A stretch of 64,000 nucleotides of DNA. Source: a bacterium (GTDB lineage Bacteria > Myxococcota > UBA727 > JAUIJE01). The stretch covers positions 186,001 through 250,000 of the forward strand of contig JAUIJE010000006.1 of assembly GCA_030431455.1 (NCBI GenBank), given 5' to 3'. A model generated the notes under the pieces. The model was not told where the DNA came from and made no database searches. It saw only the letters and a program-made list of their open reading frames with translations. This document shows, in pieces, positions 7,491 to 61,400 of the stretch. Positions within the stretch are counted from its first letter, which is position 1. The number at the start of each line of letters is the position of its first letter. Position numbers and translations under genes: made by a program.

Positions 7491-7742
7491 ATGATCAAGG
7501 GTGTTGGAAATGTTTTGAAAGTGGCGCTGGTTGCCGGCGCCATCACTGTGGGCGGCCTGTCGGCCTGTGACGGCGGCACCGGTGACGGTGACGGCGACGG
7601 CGACGGCGATGGCGATGGCGACGGCGATGCCGACGCGGGTTGCCCGAGCTGCGGCTCGGCGGACGCGGGTTGCCCGAGCTGTGGCGCCGCGGACGCGGGT
7701 TGCCCGAGCTGCGGCTCCGCGGACGCTGGCTGCGGGAGCTGA
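7491..7742 (+). CDS. Small Cys-repeat lipoprotein, candidate RiPP precursor
   Basis: Protein of 83 residues with three parts. Residues 1-26 form a signal peptide ending in the lipobox L-S-A-C (Cys26, followed by Asp27). Residues 31-46 are eight Gly-Asp repeats, a flexible acidic spacer. Residues 48-83 are 3.5 copies of a ten-residue unit (DAGCPSCGSA, DAGCPSCGAA, DAGCPSCGSA, DAGCGS) carrying seven cysteines. GAGGA at 7482-7486 supports the ATG. The next genes are a DUF692 MNIO enzyme and a DUF2063 partner, the pair that modifies Cys residues in short exported peptides (bufferins, HvfA type), so this is probably the substrate. Lipid anchoring plus CPSC repeats differs from the EGKCG-type precursors I know of. 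A metal-binding role for copper or iron is inference. Confidence 0.8.
   Translation: MIKGVGNVLKVALVAGAITVGGLSACDGGTGDGDGDGDGDGDGDGDADAGCPSCGSADAGCPSCGAADAGCPSCGSADAGCGS
7632..7739 (+). repeat. 30-bp tandem repeat encoding the Cys units
   Basis: Three 30-bp units (7632-7661, 7662-7691, 7692-7721) and a partial fourth (7722-7739) start with GACGCGGGTTGCCCGAGCTG, varying only at a few positions. Near identity at silent sites indicates recent duplication, so copy number may vary among relatives. Confidence 0.9.
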
Positions 7743-7762
7743 TCGCAGCGTTTCGCCTGCGC

Positions 7763-7793
7763 GACCCCGGCTTCGGCCGGGGTCGTTTGTTTT
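7763..7793 (+). terminator. Hairpin with U-tract between precursor and MNIO gene (attenuator)
   Basis: GACCCCGGC (7763-7771), loop TTCG (7772-7775) and GCCGGGGTC (7776-7784) make a perfect 9-bp stem with a stable UUCG loop, followed by GTTTGTTTT (7785-7793). It sits 20 bases after the precursor stop. The GGAGG ribosome-binding site of the next gene (7794-7798) follows at once, so read-through is needed to express the enzymes. Partial termination would give more precursor than enzyme mRNA. Confidence 0.85.
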
Positions 7794-7802
7794 GGAGGCC
7801 CC

Positions 7803-8645
7803 ATGAGCGGCGCACGCGGCGTGGGCATCGGGTTTCGGCGACGGTTTGCCGACGATGTGCTCACCACCGACCGGACCTTGGATTGGCTCGAGGTCACCCC
7901 CGAGAACTTCATCGGCCGGGGCGGGCGGTTCACCGCCGCGTTCGAGCGCGCCCGGGCGGACTTCGACGTGTTGGCCCACGGGGTGTCGCTCAACCTCGGC
8001 GGGCCGGACTCGTTTGAGCCCGACCAAATCGAAGGGCTCAAAACATTTCTCGACCGGTACGAGATCGACTCGTTCTCGGACCATCTGTGTTTCTCGACCG
8101 CGCGGGGCTTTTACAGCTACGACCTGTTGCCGCTGCCCTTCACCGAAGAAGCGGTGACCCACTGTGCGGCGCGCATCCGGGAGCTGTCCGACCGCCTCGA
8201 GCGCGCGGTCTACATCGAGAACATCTCCGCCTACACCATCATGCCCGGGACCATGGACGAAGGGGCCTTCACCACCGCGGTGTGTGACGAAGCGGACTGC
8301 GGCATCTTGCTCGACGTCAACAACATCTTCGTCAACGCCACCAACCACGGGCTCGATCCAGAGGCATTGTTGCGCTCCTTGCCCGCCCACCGGGCCAAGC
8401 AGATCCATCTCGCCGGCCACCTCGACCATCGCAGCGGTCTCAAGATCGATACCCACGGGGCCCCGGTCCACGACGACGTGTGGCCTTTGTTCGAGACCGC
8501 GCTGGGGCTGACCGGCGATGTGCCGGTGCTGATCGAATGGGACACCGACGTGCCCCCCCTCGAGACCGTGCTCGACGAGGCGGACAAGGCCCGCGCCATC
8601 TACCGCAAAGTCATTCAAGACGGCGGCCAACGGAGGGCGGGATGA
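7803..8645 (+). CDS. MNIO-family (DUF692) peptide-modifying oxidase, BufB/HvfB-like
   Basis: Protein of 280 residues, the usual DUF692 length, with a TIM-barrel that binds two or three irons. The family uses O2 to change Cys residues of peptides into oxazolone/thioamide, thiooxazole or related groups. All expected sequence blocks are present: D-W-L-E-V-T-P-E-N-F (27-36), AHGVSLNLGG (58-67), SDHLCFS (92-98), Y-I-E-N (137-140), LLDVNNIFVNATNHG (169-183), IHLAGH (201-206), DTHGAPV (216-222) and EWDTDVPP (245-252). By motif, His59, His94, Glu139, Asp171, Asn174, His202, Asp216, His218 and Glu245 are the likely metal ligands, so the enzyme looks intact. The start at 7803 has GGAGG four bases upstream; the end overlaps the partner gene (ATGA). 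Confidence 0.93.
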   Translation: MSGARGVGIGFRRRFADDVLTTDRTLDWLEVTPENFIGRGGRFTAAFERARADFDVLAHGVSLNLGGPDSFEPDQIEGLKTFLDRYEIDSFSDHLCFSTARGFYSYDLLPLPFTEEAVTHCAARIRELSDRLERAVYIENISAYTIMPGTMDEGAFTTAVCDEADCGILLDVNNIFVNATNHGLDPEALLRSLPAHRAKQIHLAGHLDHRSGLKIDTHGAPVHDDVWPLFETALGLTGDVPVLIEWDTDVPPLETVLDEADKARAIYRKVIQDGGQRRAG

Positions 8646-9373
8646 GCCTGACCCTCGACGCGTACTTTGAGGCCATGACCCGGCTGCTCAAACACGAGGA
8701 CACCCCCGAGGCGTTCCTCGAGCGGGTGGGGGGCGAAGGCCCCCCGGGCCGCGGGCTCCGCTACTACCAAAGCGCGATGCAGATCATCCCCGGCAACATC
8801 CTGCGGGAGGTCTACGGGCGCTGCGCCGCCTACGCGGATCGGGTCGAGCCCGGTTTGTTCGACGAGTTGGTGCGACACCACTTTCAGCTCTGCCCCATTT
8901 CGCGATGGCAGATCTTCCGCCTCGCCGAGTCCTTCGCGGATTCTGTGGAGAGCTACGCGGCCGAGCGGGAAGCGCAGAATAGGCCCATCCCCACCGCGCT
9001 GGTGGAGCTGGTCGACTACGAACAATGTCTCTGGCTTGCGCGCTCCGGGGCCCCCGCGCCCACCCACGGCATCGCGGCGCCGGTGTTCATCATGCGGCGC
9101 TACACCTACGCGGTGCGCGACTGGCTCAACGCCCTGCGCAAGGACCCCGCCACCGCCGAGCCCCGGGCCGAAGAACAGATCTGGGTCATCTACCGCGACC
9201 CCCACGAGGAGCGGGCCCACGTGTTGCGGCCCACCCCCGCCCAGTTGTTGGCCCTGGCGGTGGCCACCGGGGACCTCACCGACGAGCAGGCGTTGGGCGC
9301 GGGGTTGACCCCGGACGACCTCGCCGCCGCCCGGGCCTCGCTGCGCGAACGCGGGCTGTTGGAGCGGGCATGA
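8642..9373 (+). CDS. DUF2063-type MNIO partner protein, BufC/HvfC-like
   Basis: Protein of 243 residues. The N-terminal half (about residues 5-105) fits the DUF2063/PF09836 pattern: L-R-Y-Y-Q-S-A, then a helix pair leading to F-D-E-L-V-R-H-H-F and C-P-I-S-R, then V-D-Y-E-Q-C-L-W-L-A at about 120-130. Partners of this kind bind the peptide leader and present it to the MNIO enzyme (as MbnC and HvfC do). The C-terminal half (about 150-243) resembles the winged-helix-like tail of HvfC relatives, with RDPHEERAHVLRPTPAQLLA. The start overlaps the MNIO stop, and the end overlaps the next start (ATGA at 9370-9373), so one translational unit is likely. Confidence 0.85.
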   Translation: MSLTLDAYFEAMTRLLKHEDTPEAFLERVGGEGPPGRGLRYYQSAMQIIPGNILREVYGRCAAYADRVEPGLFDELVRHHFQLCPISRWQIFRLAESFADSVESYAAEREAQNRPIPTALVELVDYEQCLWLARSGAPAPTHGIAAPVFIMRRYTYAVRDWLNALRKDPATAEPRAEEQIWVIYRDPHEERAHVLRPTPAQLLALAVATGDLTDEQALGAGLTPDDLAAARASLRERGLLERA

Positions 9374-10374
9374 ACAAGACGCAGGTCGTGGCCGGGCTCG
9401 TGCTCGGCGCGTCCATCGGCGCCATCGGCTACTTTGGCTATTCCCTGTATCGGGACCGGTTGCCCGAGGGCGTGGTCGAGGTGACGATCGAGGACCCGGT
9501 GAGCGACTGGGACGTGAAGGGGTTCGTCACCCTCGAGCCCCCGGTGTATTTGCCCGTGACCGCGGACGAAAAAGGGCGCATCGAGGTGGCGTTGCGCATC
9601 CCCGAGGGAGCCACCGTCGAGGTCGTCGAGCACCCCGCGGACGAGCGCCCCACGCTGCGCTTCCCCGCCGGGACCATCGCCGACCGCCTCGAGTACCGAA
9701 AAGGGCTGCGGGGGGACGACGAGGTCTGGCAGGTGGCGGACGTGCGCGGGACCGAAATCGAGCCGGTCGGCGCGGAGCGGTTTCGTCTGTTTCGCCCGCT
9801 GCACAAAGGCGGCGGCCAGCCCCTGTTCGGCTACACCTGGCCGCGGGGCGAACCCGACGTGCACGAGGCGGTGATGGACCGGTTCGCGGCCGCGATGCAA
9901 AAGGGCCGCGGCTTCACCAAGCCCCCCCGGAAGAAGGCCCGGGCCCGGACCATCGAGGGGTTCCGCCAGCGGGGGGCGTGCGCGGCCTGCCACATCCATG
10001 GCAAGCCGGAGTCGCAAAAGACCCCGCGGCGGGCGACGGACGCGAGCGGCTTTTATGTGCCCCAGAGCGTGTTGTTCAACGACGCGCCCCTCGAGGCGCA
10101 CCGGGCGCGCGACATCAATCACACGTCCCCGTTCATTGACATTGGGTGTCCGGACGGGACCCCCGCTAAAAAGGTCCAGGACAAAGGGGTGCACTTCGAG
10201 TGCGACGGGGGTCAGGTGCCGCGGGCGACGTTGCGCATCGTGGAGGCGCTGGCCGCGGGGGATGTGCACGCCAAGGGGGTGTGCCGTTCGCGCCAATATT
10301 TGTACGACCACCTCGACGACGCGGGCCGGAAGGTGTTCGCCCCGCGCTTCGCCGAGTGCGGCATCGCGGGATGA
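9370..10374 (+). CDS. Membrane-anchored mono-haem c-type protein in the MNIO operon
   Basis: Protein of 334 residues. An N-terminal hydrophobic helix (about residues 5-25) anchors it with the rest outside the cytoplasm. The only haem c motif is CAACH (204-208), in G-F-R-Q-R-G-A-C-A-A-C-H-I-H. Further cysteines at 260, 278, 305 and 330 could form disulfides. The first part (30-140) looks like a beta-rich domain. I do not recognise a named family. The start overlaps the stop of the MNIO partner gene by four bases, so it is almost certainly part of the system. Methanobactin operons also carry haem proteins (MbnH), which makes an electron-transfer or oxidative role plausible, but MbnH has two haems and is not obviously related. 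Confidence 0.72.
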   Translation: MNKTQVVAGLVLGASIGAIGYFGYSLYRDRLPEGVVEVTIEDPVSDWDVKGFVTLEPPVYLPVTADEKGRIEVALRIPEGATVEVVEHPADERPTLRFPAGTIADRLEYRKGLRGDDEVWQVADVRGTEIEPVGAERFRLFRPLHKGGGQPLFGYTWPRGEPDVHEAVMDRFAAAMQKGRGFTKPPRKKARARTIEGFRQRGACAACHIHGKPESQKTPRRATDASGFYVPQSVLFNDAPLEAHRARDINHTSPFIDIGCPDGTPAKKVQDKGVHFECDGGQVPRATLRIVEALAAGDVHAKGVCRSRQYLYDHLDDAGRKVFAPRFAECGIAG

Positions 10375-10381
10375 GGCGGAG

Positions 10382-10954
10382 ATGAAACAGACGGGCATTT
10401 GGATTGGATTTTGTGCGTGGGCCCTGGTGGCGTGCGGAGATGCCGGCGGGGGCACGGACGCGGGGCCGGAGCCCGAAGCCGAGCCCGAGGTCACCGTCGA
10501 CGAGGAAGCGCTCATCGATGCGGTGGCCAACTACCAGCAGGCGGGGTTCGTGAAGATCAACGACCTGCCCTACACGTCGCAGCACGGGCTCGCGGACTTG
10601 GTCAATGTGTATGTGTCGACCGCGGACGCGACCAAGTACCGCTCGGTCGATCCCGCGGACACCGACCAGTCCATCGAACCCTTCGGCCCCGGCGCGACCA
10701 TCATCAAGGAACACCTGGATGACCTCGGCGAGTTTGACGGCCTGTTGGTGATGTACAAGGCCGAGGCCGGCTACAACCCCGACGTGGGCGACTGGTGGTG
10801 GGGCCGGTTCACCGGTGCGCCCGCGGCGGACACGTTGGCCGACAGCGGCAAGGTCGGCTTCTGCATCAGCTGCCACAGCGAGACCAACGACTTCGCGGAC
10901 ACCGACTATGTGGGCGGGGTCGAGCGCAGCAACCTCGACGCGCCAGGCTTCTGA
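10382..10954 (+). CDS. Cytochrome P460-like mono-haem lipoprotein
   Basis: Protein of 190 residues with a lipobox A-L-V-A-C (Cys18), an acidic Pro/Glu linker and a globular domain (about 45-180). The domain matches the cytochrome P460 pattern by eye: V-N-V-Y-V near residue 74, FGPGATIIKE (101-110), L-L-V-M-Y-K, GDWWWGRF (136-143), and the haem c motif CISCH (161-165) near the C-terminus. P460 proteins oxidise hydroxylamine or handle nitric oxide in some bacteria; here the substrate is unknown. It begins seven bases after the previous gene, with GGCGGAG as ribosome-binding site, and is the last gene of the MNIO operon as I read it. Confidence 0.75.
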   Translation: MKQTGIWIGFCAWALVACGDAGGGTDAGPEPEAEPEVTVDEEALIDAVANYQQAGFVKINDLPYTSQHGLADLVNVYVSTADATKYRSVDPADTDQSIEPFGPGATIIKEHLDDLGEFDGLLVMYKAEAGYNPDVGDWWWGRFTGAPAADTLADSGKVGFCISCHSETNDFADTDYVGGVERSNLDAPGF

Positions 10955-28544: not shown

Positions 28545-34811
<6,267 letters not shown>

Positions 34812-44482: not shown

Positions 44483-46975
44483 TCAGTTGGTCCCGATGGG
44501 GTTGACGTAGGCATCTGAGAACAGAACCGCCTCCAGCACGTCGCGGAACGTCCCCTCCCCTTGACCGGCGGCTTGCCACAGATCGAAGTAGAGGGTGCGC
44601 TCGTCGTCCTGGTGGCGCATCTGGCGGTTGAACACCATTTGGAACTGGGTGTTGATCATGCGGCGAATAAATCCTTCTTTGCGGATGGCGACCTGGGAGA
44701 AGGCCTCCATGCCGTTGCCGGCGTAGGGGTAGCCGTCGACGAGCCCGTGGTCGGAATCGTCGAGGGGCATGCCCATGTCGTCGACTTCGCGGTAGTTGCC
44801 GTCGTCGTCCCACTTGAGCCGTTGGTGGGCCAACGGGGTGAGGACCTGGTGGCAGGAGTAGCAGATGCTCTCGGGGTCGACGGTCGACGCCGCGGTGGCG
44901 GTGTCGCGCTCGTCGAACACCTCGGGCGGCACCTCGAACACGCGGCCCATGAAGCCGGTCATGACCCGGGCGGAGTAGTTGTAGTGCGGCAGCCCCGGCT
45001 TGCCTTTGATGTAGCCCTTCATGGTCAGCACCCCGGTGGCGCCGTGCTCGGGGGGCCGGGCCTGGGGCTCGAAGTTCTCGTCGACGCCGTACTCGCCCGC
45101 GAGCAGGTCGCGCATCGGCCGGTCCGCGAGGAAGATGTGCGTCAGCATGCGCGCGGGCTCGTCTCCGTCGACGGTGCCGTCGGTCTCGAGGAGGATGCGG
45201 GCCCGGTGGTAAAAGGCGTCCCGGAAGTCGTCGCTGTCGAGCCACTCGTCGACGAGCTCTTGGCGGGTGCTTTCCCCGGTGTCGAAGCGGTCGAGCTCGC
45301 CCTGGGTGGGGGGCCGGTCGAGGAGATCGAGGGCGGATTTGATCACCAACATGCGGGACCGCTCGTCGGCGCTGGCCCCGTCGAAGGCCGCGGGCCGGGT
45401 GAACAAGAAGTCGGGGTGCCGGATCAGCCCTTCGCACACCCCCGCGTACGCGCCGTCGCGGTCGCCGTCGAAGCTGTCGAGGCTGACGAGCAGGTTGTAC
45501 AGGGGCATCAGGTCGGCGTCGGGGTCGCCGGGGCGCAGGGTCACGCGTTCGAACACGGTGCCGAGCTTGGCCAGGGTGTCGGCCATGGCGGTGTCGCCGC
45601 CCACCGGGGGGTTCACCGGGCCCACCACCTGCAGCCGTTGGATGAACAAGTTGCGGTCGCGGTTGTTCGGGTCCGGGTCGTCGGGCATGTAGTAGTCATT
45701 GGTGAACATCGCGTCGACGGTGTGAAGCCCGGCGGTGGTGGTGATGGTCACGTCGTAGTCGGCGAAGCCGGTGGACTCGGGCACGTCCCATTCCCCGGCG
45801 ATGACGCCGTCGATGAGCAATTGCATGTGCGGCAGGTCGGGGCCGGCTTCGTCGCCTTGGGCGGAGATGGTGATCTCGTAATCCCCGTCGGAGGGGAAGG
45901 TGTGTTCGGCCCGGCCGCCCCCGGCGCTGACCACGCGCAGCGACGGGGGGTTGCCGCCGATGTTCCACGGGGTGGCGCGCACCGTGCCCTGGCCGGTGAC
46001 GGAGATGAGGTCGGCGGGCTCATACAGCGTCGTGCTCTGGGGGGCGGTGTCTTGCAGGGGGCCGCTGAAGTCGAGGCCGTCAAAGGGGCCGGTCTTTTGG
46101 GCCGCGGCCTGGCTGCAGACGTCCTCGGCGAGCAGGTCGAGCCCGACGAGGAACTCGGCGGTGGCGGCCCGGGCGGGGATGTACGCGTTTTCGAAATCGA
46201 CCCCGCCGAACAGCGAGATGTTGGCCGAGAACCGGTCTTCGCCGTCGCGCACCCAGTCGTCGCCGAACTGTACGTCGATGCGCCCCTTGAGCTGTTCGAA
46301 GGTCAGGAAGGTGTTGTCGTATTCCGTGGGCGCGGGGCCGACGTACGGCTCGAGCAACCCGGGGGGGAAGATCTCGTCGAGGGGGATGGGGTTGTCCTGC
46401 TCGTACAGCACCGCGGCGCAGGTGAAGACCCGGAGGTCGTCGCGCTCGTCGTCGTTCCAGGCGGGGTTGGGAGACGGCGGCATGAGCGCGCGGTCGACGC
46501 GATCGTAGAAGTTCAACGGGTCGAAGTCGAAGTACCCCGCGGTCCGAATCTTGTGGAACGTGTCGACCGCGGTGGTGCCCATGGCGAACCCGCCCACGAC
46601 GTCAGGGCCGTGGCAGGTGATGCATCCGCCTTCGGCCGCGTCCCGCGTCATCATGGGGTAGATGTTGGCCGAGAACCGATCGATGAGCTCGGTCAACGAC
46701 GAGGCCGCGGGCACGTCGTCGCAGCTGAGCCCCTCGGGGATGACCGGCCGCTGCGGAATCACATCGCCGTCGCCGTCGCCGTCGCCGGGGCCGTCTCCAT
46801 CGCCGTCACCGATGATGTCGCCGTCGCCGTCGCCGATGATGTCGCCATCGCCGTCGCCGGGACCGTCGCCGTCGCCGTTGAGGTTGTTGTTGAGCCCGAC
46901 CAACGCGGTGCAGGCGGAGAGAGCGAAGCACGCGGCCGCGACGGCCACGGCCCGCAAACCAGTGGAGGCGTTCAT
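44483..46975 (-). CDS. DUF1592/DUF1588/DUF1585-type two-haem lipoprotein with CBM60-like domain
   Basis: Protein of 830 residues, lipobox L-S-A-C (Cys22), then a Gly-Asp-rich linker (34-71). CITCH (118-122) and CYSCH (705-709) are two haem c motifs. Between them lies a beta domain (about 330-440) with L-L-I-D-G-V-I-A-G-E-W-D-V-P, F-T-N-D-Y-Y and D-R-N-L-F-I, which resembles the calcium-dependent CBM60/CaXBM module. The DUF1592 and DUF1588/DUF1585 segments follow (about 480-825, e.g. FLFTRPAAF and F-M-G-R-V-F-E-V-P-P). The carbohydrate-binding look suggests oxidative attack on a polysaccharide, as inference. It starts at ATG 46975; the DUF1501-like gene follows 10 bases after its stop. Confidence 0.82.
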   Translation of the reverse strand: MNASTGLRAVAVAAACFALSACTALVGLNNNLNGDGDGPGDGDGDIIGDGDGDIIGDGDGDGPGDGDGDGDVIPQRPVIPEGLSCDDVPAASSLTELIDRFSANIYPMMTRDAAEGGCITCHGPDVVGGFAMGTTAVDTFHKIRTAGYFDFDPLNFYDRVDRALMPPSPNPAWNDDERDDLRVFTCAAVLYEQDNPIPLDEIFPPGLLEPYVGPAPTEYDNTFLTFEQLKGRIDVQFGDDWVRDGEDRFSANISLFGGVDFENAYIPARAATAEFLVGLDLLAEDVCSQAAAQKTGPFDGLDFSGPLQDTAPQSTTLYEPADLISVTGQGTVRATPWNIGGNPPSLRVVSAGGGRAEHTFPSDGDYEITISAQGDEAGPDLPHMQLLIDGVIAGEWDVPESTGFADYDVTITTTAGLHTVDAMFTNDYYMPDDPDPNNRDRNLFIQRLQVVGPVNPPVGGDTAMADTLAKLGTVFERVTLRPGDPDADLMPLYNLLVSLDSFDGDRDGAYAGVCEGLIRHPDFLFTRPAAFDGASADERSRMLVIKSALDLLDRPPTQGELDRFDTGESTRQELVDEWLDSDDFRDAFYHRARILLETDGTVDGDEPARMLTHIFLADRPMRDLLAGEYGVDENFEPQARPPEHGATGVLTMKGYIKGKPGLPHYNYSARVMTGFMGRVFEVPPEVFDERDTATAASTVDPESICYSCHQVLTPLAHQRLKWDDDGNYREVDDMGMPLDDSDHGLVDGYPYAGNGMEAFSQVAIRKEGFIRRMINTQFQMVFNRQMRHQDDERTLYFDLWQAAGQGEGTFRDVLEAVLFSDAYVNPIGTN
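46763..46876 (-). repeat. Interrupted Gly-Asp repeat in the DUF1592-type gene
   Basis: Encodes residues 34-71 of the lipoprotein: Gly-Asp runs interrupted by G-P and D-I-I, all from GG-N/GA-Y hexamers. See also the runs at 7581, 28713 and 58600. Confidence 0.9.
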
Positions 46976-58458: not shown

Positions 58459-61400
58459 CTACTCAGGCATCTGGCGGACGCGGCGTCCACCGCGCCGCCG
58501 CCGCAGGGCGATCAGGGCCAACGCCCACAGCCCCAAACCCCAAGGCCGCGACGTCGCCGCGCCCGGCGTCATCGAACAGCCACAATCGTCGCCGTTGCCA
58601 TCGCCGTCGCCGTCGCCGTCACCATCGCCATCACCGTCGCCGTCGCCATCTCCGTCGCCGTCACCATCTCCGTCGCCGTCACCATCTCCGTCGCCGTCGC
58701 CGTCGCCATCGCCGTCTCCGTCTCCGTCACCATCGCCGTCTCCGTCGCCATCCCCGTCACCGCCCGGTTGGCAGGTGAAGCCAAGGCCCTCTTGGACGCA
58801 GGCCAGACCGTCGTCACAGACCAGCGGGCTGTCGCCCTCGGGACTGCACGCGGTGCCTTCATCGCCCACGCACCGGGGCACGCCGGCGGGGTCGAGCCCA
58901 CAGGTCCGGCCGATGGCCGCACAGTCCAAGCCTTGCGCTTCGCGCACGGTGTAGTCGTCGTTGCCTAGACAATACGTGGCGATGTCGCCCACGCAGCCGA
59001 TGTGCTCGTCGCCCCGGGCGCAATCGCCGACCGCGCGGCAGGTCTGCACCGCCTCGCCTTCGAGCTGCTCGACCACGCAGCCATAGCCCGGCCCGCACAG
59101 GTAGGTCGTGGTCACGTCGCACGGGGCGCCCTCGCCGCTGGCCACGCAGCTGTCGCCCACCAGGTCACACGTCCCGTCCCCGTCGTCGAGGCAGCTGAAC
59201 GACGCACCACAGACCGCGTCGGGTCCCTCCGCGATCAACGCCGCGCAGTCGAGACCGGCCACGGTCCCGGTGTCGTCGTCACAATAGGTGAGCGTGTCGC
59301 CGGTGCAGCTCGGCACCAACAGCGTGGGATCGCAGAGGTCCTCGGGCACCGCACAGGTCGCGGTCACCGGATTGCACGTCAACGCGCCGTCGCACTCGTG
59401 TTGGGCGTCGCAGGGGGCGTCCTCGGGCAACGACGCGCAGTGGCCTTCGCTGCAGGAGCCGGCCAACGCCGCGCAGTCGGTGGCCACCGCTTGGCCCACC
59501 TGGCAATCGATCACCGCGAGGTCGCCGCTGCAGGAGGGGGCAAAGGGGACGTCGCCGGCGGTGAGGCACGTGGGCACGTCCGCTTCACAATGTGACGTGG
59601 CGGTGCTCTCGTCGACCACACAAGAACCACCCGGCCCCTCACAGAACGCGAACACCACATCGCCGGTGTCGTTGAAGAACGAGCACGCATCGCCGCTCGG
59701 CACCGCGCAGTCGAAGCCATACACCGGGTCGATGAGCGTGCAGAGGCCGTCGGTGTCGGGGAACACGCCGGCGCAATCCACCGTGGCCAGGGTCTCGGAC
59801 GGTGTCCCCCGGTCCTCGCAATAGCTCAGCTGCGCTCCCGCACAGGTCCCGTAGTAGCCGACGTCCCCGCAGGGGCCAGGCCCCGGCTCGACGTCGATGT
59901 CCACCGCGGCGGACCGCACCCCGGTCCCGAGGTCGCCGACCCCGCCGAGCAGAGCCACGTCGACCGCGGCGGTGCCCACCGTGACCCCACGCAGGTACAC
60001 GTCGACGATCACGTCGCTGCCGGCAGGCAGGGCGGGCACCGCGCAGGTCGCCGACTGCGCATCGTGGTCGCACACCGCCCCCGCGGCGAGGACCTGCACG
60101 ATGTCCACCTGCGCATCCACGTCGACAATGAGCTGGTCGAAGGCCACCTCACCGGGGCCGAGCGCGGTCACGGTGACGTGGACCGGCACCACGTCTTCGA
60201 TCGTCACCGTCTCGGAATCGGCGACCACCGAGAGGTCGTGGGCGCCGCACACACCCTCGGTGGCGTCGCTGACGAGGAAAATGGTGTCGGTGGCGGCGCC
60301 ATCGGTGAGGTAGCCGCCCCCGGTCCCCGGCACCACCGTCAGCGACGAGGTGCCGAGCAGATGGGCCCGGCTGGCGGGCCCCGCCGACACCGCGAGGCCG
60401 TTGGCGGTTGCATTCGACGGTTGCAGAAACGACGAAAAGAGTAGGCTGGAGGCGTCGGGGGAAAAGCGGGCCACAAAGCCATTGGGCCCGCCCCCGGTGG
60501 CGGCCGACAGGGTGCAGGCGGCCAAGGGGAAGGTGGGGCCCCCGTAGGTCTGGCCCGTGATCAGCCAGGTCCCGTCGGGGGCGATGGTGATGTCGTGGGG
60601 CACGTCGATGTCCGCGTCGCCGTAGAAGGTGCCGTAGACGAGGCTCGCGCCGTCTGGGCTCAGGGCCGCGATGCCCACGTCTTCATCGCCCGGGGCGGTG
60701 GCGAACGCGCCCGAGGCCGCCACCGGAAAGTCACTGGAGGTGGTGTGCAGCGCGACCACCGGCCGCCCGGCGGCGTCCACCGCGATCGCCCCGCGCAACC
60801 GGTCCACCGTCTCGGTGCCGAGGCCGCCGACAAACGTGGTGAACACGACGCTGGCATCGCCGTCGAGCGCAGGGTTGACCCGGACCACCCCGGCTTGGTT
60901 CGCGCCGGTCTGAAAGGCGCCGGGGGTGGCCAGGAGACTCACCGCGGCCCCGGCAAAGACCGAACCGGCCAAGACGTAGAGGTCACCGTCGGGACCGGCG
61001 GCGAGGTCCCATCCGACGTCGTTGTCGCCGCGGGACAAGCGGCCGGCGTAGAGCAGGGTGGCGGTGCCGGCGAGGGCGGGGTCGAACACCGCGAGCACCG
61101 CCGCCCCCGCGTTGGCCGGGCTTCCCACATCGGGGAACGTGCCCGCGGCGGGGGCGTGGCCGGCGATGGCGAAGGTGCCGTCGGGCCGGGCCGCGACCGC
61201 TTCGGCCCGGGTGCCCCCCGACCCCAAGGTGGTGGCGTAGTCGAGCGCCGACCCGTCCGCGTGCAGCAACAATGCAAATGCAGCGTTGGCGGCAACCGGC
61301 TGGGCGGCGTTGACCGCGGGGAAATCGGCCGAGCTCGTGAGCCCGGCGATGACCGGGCGGCCGTCGGGCAGGACATCGATGGCCACGGGGGTGTCCGCGC

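Follow-up and report, generated by a model that had tools for sequence, protein, structure and literature searches.

All MNIO-PME1 systems characterised so far install 5-thiooxazole, and the MNIO groups differ in their selectivity for cysteine (PMC13097082). FonBC, an enzyme for EGKCG repeats, modifies a minimal substrate with two repeats but not one with a single repeat; it tolerates Pro at no site of the 5-mer, and the double variants it accepts have only Gly or Ala after the Cys (PMC13097082). Among bufferins, bufA stands 5′ of bufBC, 16% of Buf2 proteins are predicted lipoproteins, and fusions of Buf1 to Cytochrom_C have been reported (PMC12452194). Lipidated MNIO products exist as well (PMC12636315). 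The products of the characterised MNIO-PME1 systems have mostly been read as copper buffers or scavengers. Here we describe a locus in a stretch of bacterial DNA of 64,000 nucleotides (the window) in which a Cys-rich precursor stands beside an MNIO gene and a gene for a P460-type haem protein. We put at about even the chance that the precursor provides a lipid-anchored, MNIO-modified, probably copper-binding and captophorin-like Cys tract that works with a P460 haem.

The genes and elements of the cluster all lie on the + strand. The precursor gene, taken from the ORF list (7491-7742), encodes a predicted lipoprotein of 83 residues, in which a signal peptide (residues 1-25) and an LSAC lipobox with Cys26 (codon 7566-7568) were recognised by eye; both are a direct reading of the sequence, and lipidation is the prediction that follows from them. 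The lipobox is followed by a Gly-Asp tether, (GD)n, of 21 residues that is encoded by a 6-bp array (7569-7631). Since tethers of the same type are also present in other lipoproteins of the source genome, we regard it as a display linker and not as the mark of a precursor family. Other hexamer arrays of the GD/DG-coding kind are located in the window at 28713-28804, 46764-46878 and 58587-58762, possibly as linkers of other lipoproteins, and elsewhere in the genome two P460-like lipoproteins (C4:449144, locus L186, and C18:698300, locus L206) carry a very long (GD)n and no Cys tract. The gap between the precursor and MNIO genes contains a terminator-like hairpin (7761-7794; 11 pairs, a UUCG loop, a T-rich tail, z -2.6), a possible attenuator, which would hold the precursor mRNA above the level of the enzyme mRNA. 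The lipobox, the tether, this hairpin and two haem-protein genes further downstream extend the initial annotation of this DNA.

The C-terminal part of the ORF (7632-7742) is the Cys repeat core, which reads DAGCPSCGSA, DAGCPSCGAA, DAGCPSCGSA and DAGCGS before a TGA stop and contains seven Cys residues. Translation and TRF (a 30-bp array of 3.7 copies, score 171) place the repeat exactly where it had been annotated initially. The units had been called identical. They are near-identical: units 1-3 share 27-29 of 30 bp with one another, but Ser is replaced by Ala in unit 2, and neither the Pro nor the second Cys is present in unit 4, which matches each of the others at 16 of 21 bp. The single Cys of this last unit, also annotated before, is due to the TGA, which occupies the codon of the second Cys (TGC or TGT) in the other units. 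The proposal that the 30-bp units expanded recently gained clear support from the synonymous sites, at which units 1-3 show one codon difference (8 codons in three units) against 6.4 expected from the codon usage of the neighbouring genes (P = 0.0003). This excess similarity points to recent copying of the units. Besides the three units, the 7.7-Mb genome contains the pattern DAGC-x2-CG once more, at an isolated site. In agreement with the initial annotation, the DAGCPSCG motif differs from the EGKCG motif of HvfA, and no NCBIfam model matched the precursor even at E 0.1. Selenocysteine was considered for the final TGA, which takes the place of a Cys codon in a frame that stays open for 20 more codons (window 7740-7803), into the MNIO start. 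The downstream sequence does not continue the repeat, however, and is followed by the terminator-like hairpin, so that an ordinary stop is the simpler explanation.

The gene adjoining the precursor on its downstream side (7803-8645; PF05114, 315 bits) encodes an MNIO enzyme. The enzyme comes nearest to HvfB and BufB among the NCBIfam models, with scores under both equivalog cut-offs. It retains the equivalents of the catalytic Asp249 and of Arg15/Arg16 of FonB, and has Thr at the position of Phe250. The next gene (8642-9373), which overlaps the MNIO stop, encodes a divergent DUF2063/PME-type partner that scores 14.7 bits against DUF2063, under the cut-off of 27.2; its homologue in the related genome G085 scores above it, at 27.7 bits. 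SbtM (TIGR04082), the model of a thio(seleno)oxazole radical SAM maturase, also aligned with residues 108-240 of the window PME, at E 5e-4 and far short of its cut-off, a similarity that may reflect a shared recognition domain. From the MNIO gene through the PME gene to the two haem-protein genes, cytA and cytB, successive genes overlap or are at most 7 bases apart. The cluster showed neither a second candidate substrate for the MNIO nor a metal-response gene, and DoxX is absent from the list of its genes. Because the precursor is a Cys-rich and predicted exported ORF located directly upstream of an MNIO gene, as bufA is before bufBC (PMC12452194), it is very probably the substrate of the MNIO/PME pair. 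The view of this ORF as a precursor for modification enzymes thus probably holds, though the likely substrate is a predicted lipoprotein and not a free peptide. The same genome contains a second MNIO cluster (L002, 1015-1359 and 1417-2310; C4:296.7 kb) whose lipobox-containing precursor has EGSCG repeats and an HvfA-domain score of 18.5 bits against a cut-off of 19.5; judged by its motifs, it is a more usual captophorin-type system alongside the unusual one.

Gene cytA (9370-10374) overlaps the PME stop and encodes a protein with one haem motif (CAACH) that belongs to no known family according to a Pfam search, in which nothing matched; its predicted structure (pLDDT 48) was too poor for a fold search. 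To place the cluster, we used genome sets of 1 genome for the window's family, 16 for its order and class and 195 for its phylum, probably Myxococcota. Clear cytA matches were present in four of the 195 genomes of the phylum, in all four with an adjacent PME gene. None was detected in plasmids, nor in the 392 genomes of the phylum of the L025 genome together with six other genomes, a search that had no positive control there. The PME and cytA genes look like an inherited unit; among the loci compared, the best match of the window PME is the cytA-linked PME of genome G165. The latter has kept PME and cytA (L144, 2659-4301), with neither MNIO nor Cys tract found beside them, which may reflect either decay or the use of an MNIO that another of its contigs (L145) carries.

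The last gene of the cluster, cytB (10382-10954), encodes a cytochrome P460 lipoprotein with a VACG lipobox and a CISCH motif (PF16694, 28 bits; cut-off 27). In G085 (locus L142) and G168 (L143), the two cytA-bearing relatives that keep MNIO at the locus, the genes run precursor-MNIO-PME-cytA, and the precursor, encoded immediately 5′ of MNIO, is a fusion. It is a lipoprotein of 200-206 residues with an N-terminal tract, GCPAGCPAADAGCPAGCP, and a P460 domain as its C-terminal half, so that in the L143 protein (2342-2944), for instance, tract and haem domain form one polypeptide. All four tract Cys are conserved between these genomes, which belong to different genera. As the Pfam P460 scores of the fused domains (22.9 and 13.2 bits) are under the cut-off, their assignment rests on profile and fold results. 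A profile of a 12-member P460 alignment retrieved the P460s of Nitrosomonas sp. AL212 and N. europaea from the PDB at E 6e-5 to 7e-5; single-sequence phmmer searches of the PDB with cytB or the L143 protein gave nothing usable. When a model of the L143 protein, whose first 60 residues including the tract are without confidence, was compared with PDB folds, the top 17 chains were all P460/c′-beta (Z 6.6-8.8; next chain, 4.9). Moreover, all 12 aligned proteins, cytB and the fused domains included, have Lys where NeP460 has the crosslinking Lys70. At the distal carboxylate site (Glu96), cytB carries Leu and the two fused proteins carry Ala. P460 proteins examined that have no adjoining MNIO also have no GCP tract. 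These observations make P460 a probable functional partner of the Cys tract. We found no earlier description of an MNIO-type Cys tract fused to a P460 haem cytochrome, and no paper joining 'cytochrome P460' with MNIO or DUF692 in a literature search whose coverage mostly stopped short of subscription journals.

MNIO genes are present in 125 of the 195 genomes of the phylum, and the precursors examined are mostly EGxCG-like or NxCKG-like, many with a lipobox. Complete clusters, with tract, MNIO, PME, cytA and P460, are known in three cases. In the free tree their three MNIOs, of which that of the window is on a long branch, are not grouped in a single clade, but the AU test does not reject such a grouping (p 0.17). 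P460 relatives occur in 45 of the 195 genomes, and cytB was not recovered with the fused protein as query; by this measure, cytB is not close kin of the fused P460 domains. Either P460 split off and diverged, or it would have been recruited twice; in the second case the functional link would gain weight. A conserved operon lacking the repeat, which the initial annotation had named as the refuting case, was encountered only where MNIO is also gone from the locus (G165). Wherever MNIO remains there, the Cys tract remains too.

As to which Cys residues are modified, heterocycles and metal binding, both suggested initially, are plausible in view of the 5-thiooxazole that every characterised MNIO-PME1 system makes (PMC13097082). 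A simple CxxC chelator is less so, since the CxxC unit is not conserved: the relatives carry GCPAGCP, and the element common to them and the window is GCP. Cys is followed by Pro at three of the seven core Cys in the window precursor and at all four tract Cys (GCP) in both relatives. In the FonBC register, unit 4 is canonical (D-A-G-C-G), and units 1-3 have Pro at position 5 for their first Cys (D-A-G-C-P) and at position 2 for their second (C-P-S-C-G). By the FonBC rule, with Pro tolerated nowhere and Gly or Ala preferred after Cys, the sole canonical site would be the Cys of the last unit (DAGCG), contrary to the earlier idea that each Cys could be converted. Either the P460-linked subgroup tolerates Cys-Pro, for which the varying selectivity of MNIO groups leaves room (PMC13097082), or the GCP cysteines would remain unmodified.

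From the sequence anatomy, gene order, fusion, P460 fold and conserved Lys we infer the modification, metal, electron transfer and physiological role as follows. In the cytoplasm, MNIO and PME would oxidise some tract Cys, with 5-thiooxazole (-4 Da per Cys) as the most probable product. Sec would then export the precursor, Cys26 would be lipidated, and the flexible Gly-Asp tether would present the tract. The modified Cys would serve as ligands of a soft metal, for which copper is the best candidate by analogy with captophorins; whether thiooxazole formation and copper binding both take place we regard as evenly balanced. The tract, unlike ordinary bufferins and oxazolins, would work with a P460-type haem, that of cytB here and that of the same polypeptide in the two relatives, with which cytA probably exchanges electrons. 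The P460 part would bind NO or a similar ligand, and a possible function of the whole unit is to deal with copper and reactive nitrogen at the membrane; a role in NO/Cu stress is a tentative suggestion. Slightly more doubtful is the fullest form of this proposal, in which an MNIO that accepts Cys-Pro builds a thiooxazole-type Cu site on, or docking to, a P460 lipoprotein, giving a composite Cu/haem redox unit and not a copper buffer. Weighing against the main reading are the Cys-Pro sites, which FonBC would refuse, the separate position of the window MNIO in the free tree, the distance of cytB from the fused P460 domains, the small number of complete clusters (three) and the lack of metal-response and DoxX genes.

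The locus might instead encode an ordinary lipidated captophorin or bufferin, a membrane copper buffer with an unusual motif to which the haem genes are mere neighbours. Lipidated MNIO products are known (PMC12636315), many precursors of the phylum have a lipobox, and the DAGCG of the last unit fits the EGKCG register. This reading is nevertheless rather unlikely, considering that two relatives have tract and P460 in one protein, that the standalone P460s examined have no tract, and that cytA is next to PME in four of four genomes. We consider it clearly less probable still that unmodified thiols bind Zn or Fe while MNIO acts on another substrate or on the last Cys only. CPSCG presumably resembles a zinc-ribbon or rubredoxin knuckle, three of which stand in tandem. 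In addition, Pro beside Cys should block a FonB-like enzyme (PMC13097082), but the CPxCG spacing is not conserved (CPAGCP in the relatives) and the cluster offered no second candidate substrate.

A P460 unit that oxidises hydroxylamine and passes the electrons to the modified tract would agree with the activity of known cytochromes P460 (PMC11928373) and with the conserved crosslink Lys. The distal carboxylate position, however, holds Leu or Ala, and NsP460, which has the crosslink and Ala at this place, does not oxidise hydroxylamine (PMC11928373). This makes such a unit improbable, and NO binding or another redox role appears more likely for the P460 part. Finally, the core could be a passively expanding low-complexity linker whose Cys have no special role, given that lipoproteins of the source genome and its relatives commonly have linkers rich in DAG or GD and that the 30-bp units look recent. 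We give this very little credence: the precursor is located directly 5′ of MNIO, four of four tract Cys are conserved between relatives of different genera, and a (GD)n P460 lipoprotein elsewhere in the source genome has no Cys tract.

The main interest of the locus thus extends beyond 7632-7742, to the tie with a P460 haem. If the proposed partnership of tract and P460 is correct, the fusion means that RiPP chemistry can also equip redox proteins. The tract further raises the question of Cys-Pro as a possible MNIO target, one that FonBC does not accept, and hints at a biochemical setting for the many P460 lipoproteins of the phylum.

The window cluster resembles the EGKCG-type captophorins (oxazolin HvfABC, fontiphorin FonABC) in three respects: a Cys-repeat precursor with predicted Sec export precedes the MNIO and a PME-type partner, an acidic residue stands three before the Cys (DAGC; EGKC in the captophorins), and the catalytic Asp and Arg pair is kept. 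It differs from them in the absence of Lys before the Cys, the Pro after many Cys, the Thr in place of FonB Phe250, the lack of a visible DoxX gene and the haem-protein genes in the operon. With respect to HvfA itself, the precursor has neither EGKCG repeats nor an HvfA or other NCBIfam match, whereas the second cluster of the genome nearly matches. The gene order is that of the bufferins Buf1 (DUF2282) and Buf2, but no DUF2282 match (Pfam up to E 0.1) and no Buf2-like Cys spacing was found in the precursor, and in contrast to the Buf1|Cytochrom_C fusions (PF00034) the haem domain here is P460, a beta fold. Cytochrome P460 proteins (NeP460, NsP460) share with cytB and the fused domains the fold, CxxCH and the position of the crosslink Lys, and NsP460 shares the missing distal carboxylate; cytB and the fused proteins differ in their predicted lipid anchor and in the MNIO-linked Cys tract that they accompany or carry. 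The RiPP-lipoprotein hybrids (DAG-RiPPs DybA and NedA) have an SPII lipobox on an MNIO substrate (PMC12636315), an arrangement for which the window precursor, with the lipobox read from its sequence, is a candidate, but the core motif of the window precursor is different and its partners are P460 and cytA. The precursor is likely a variant of the MNIO-modified lipoprotein RiPPs that is neither an HvfA nor a Buf1.
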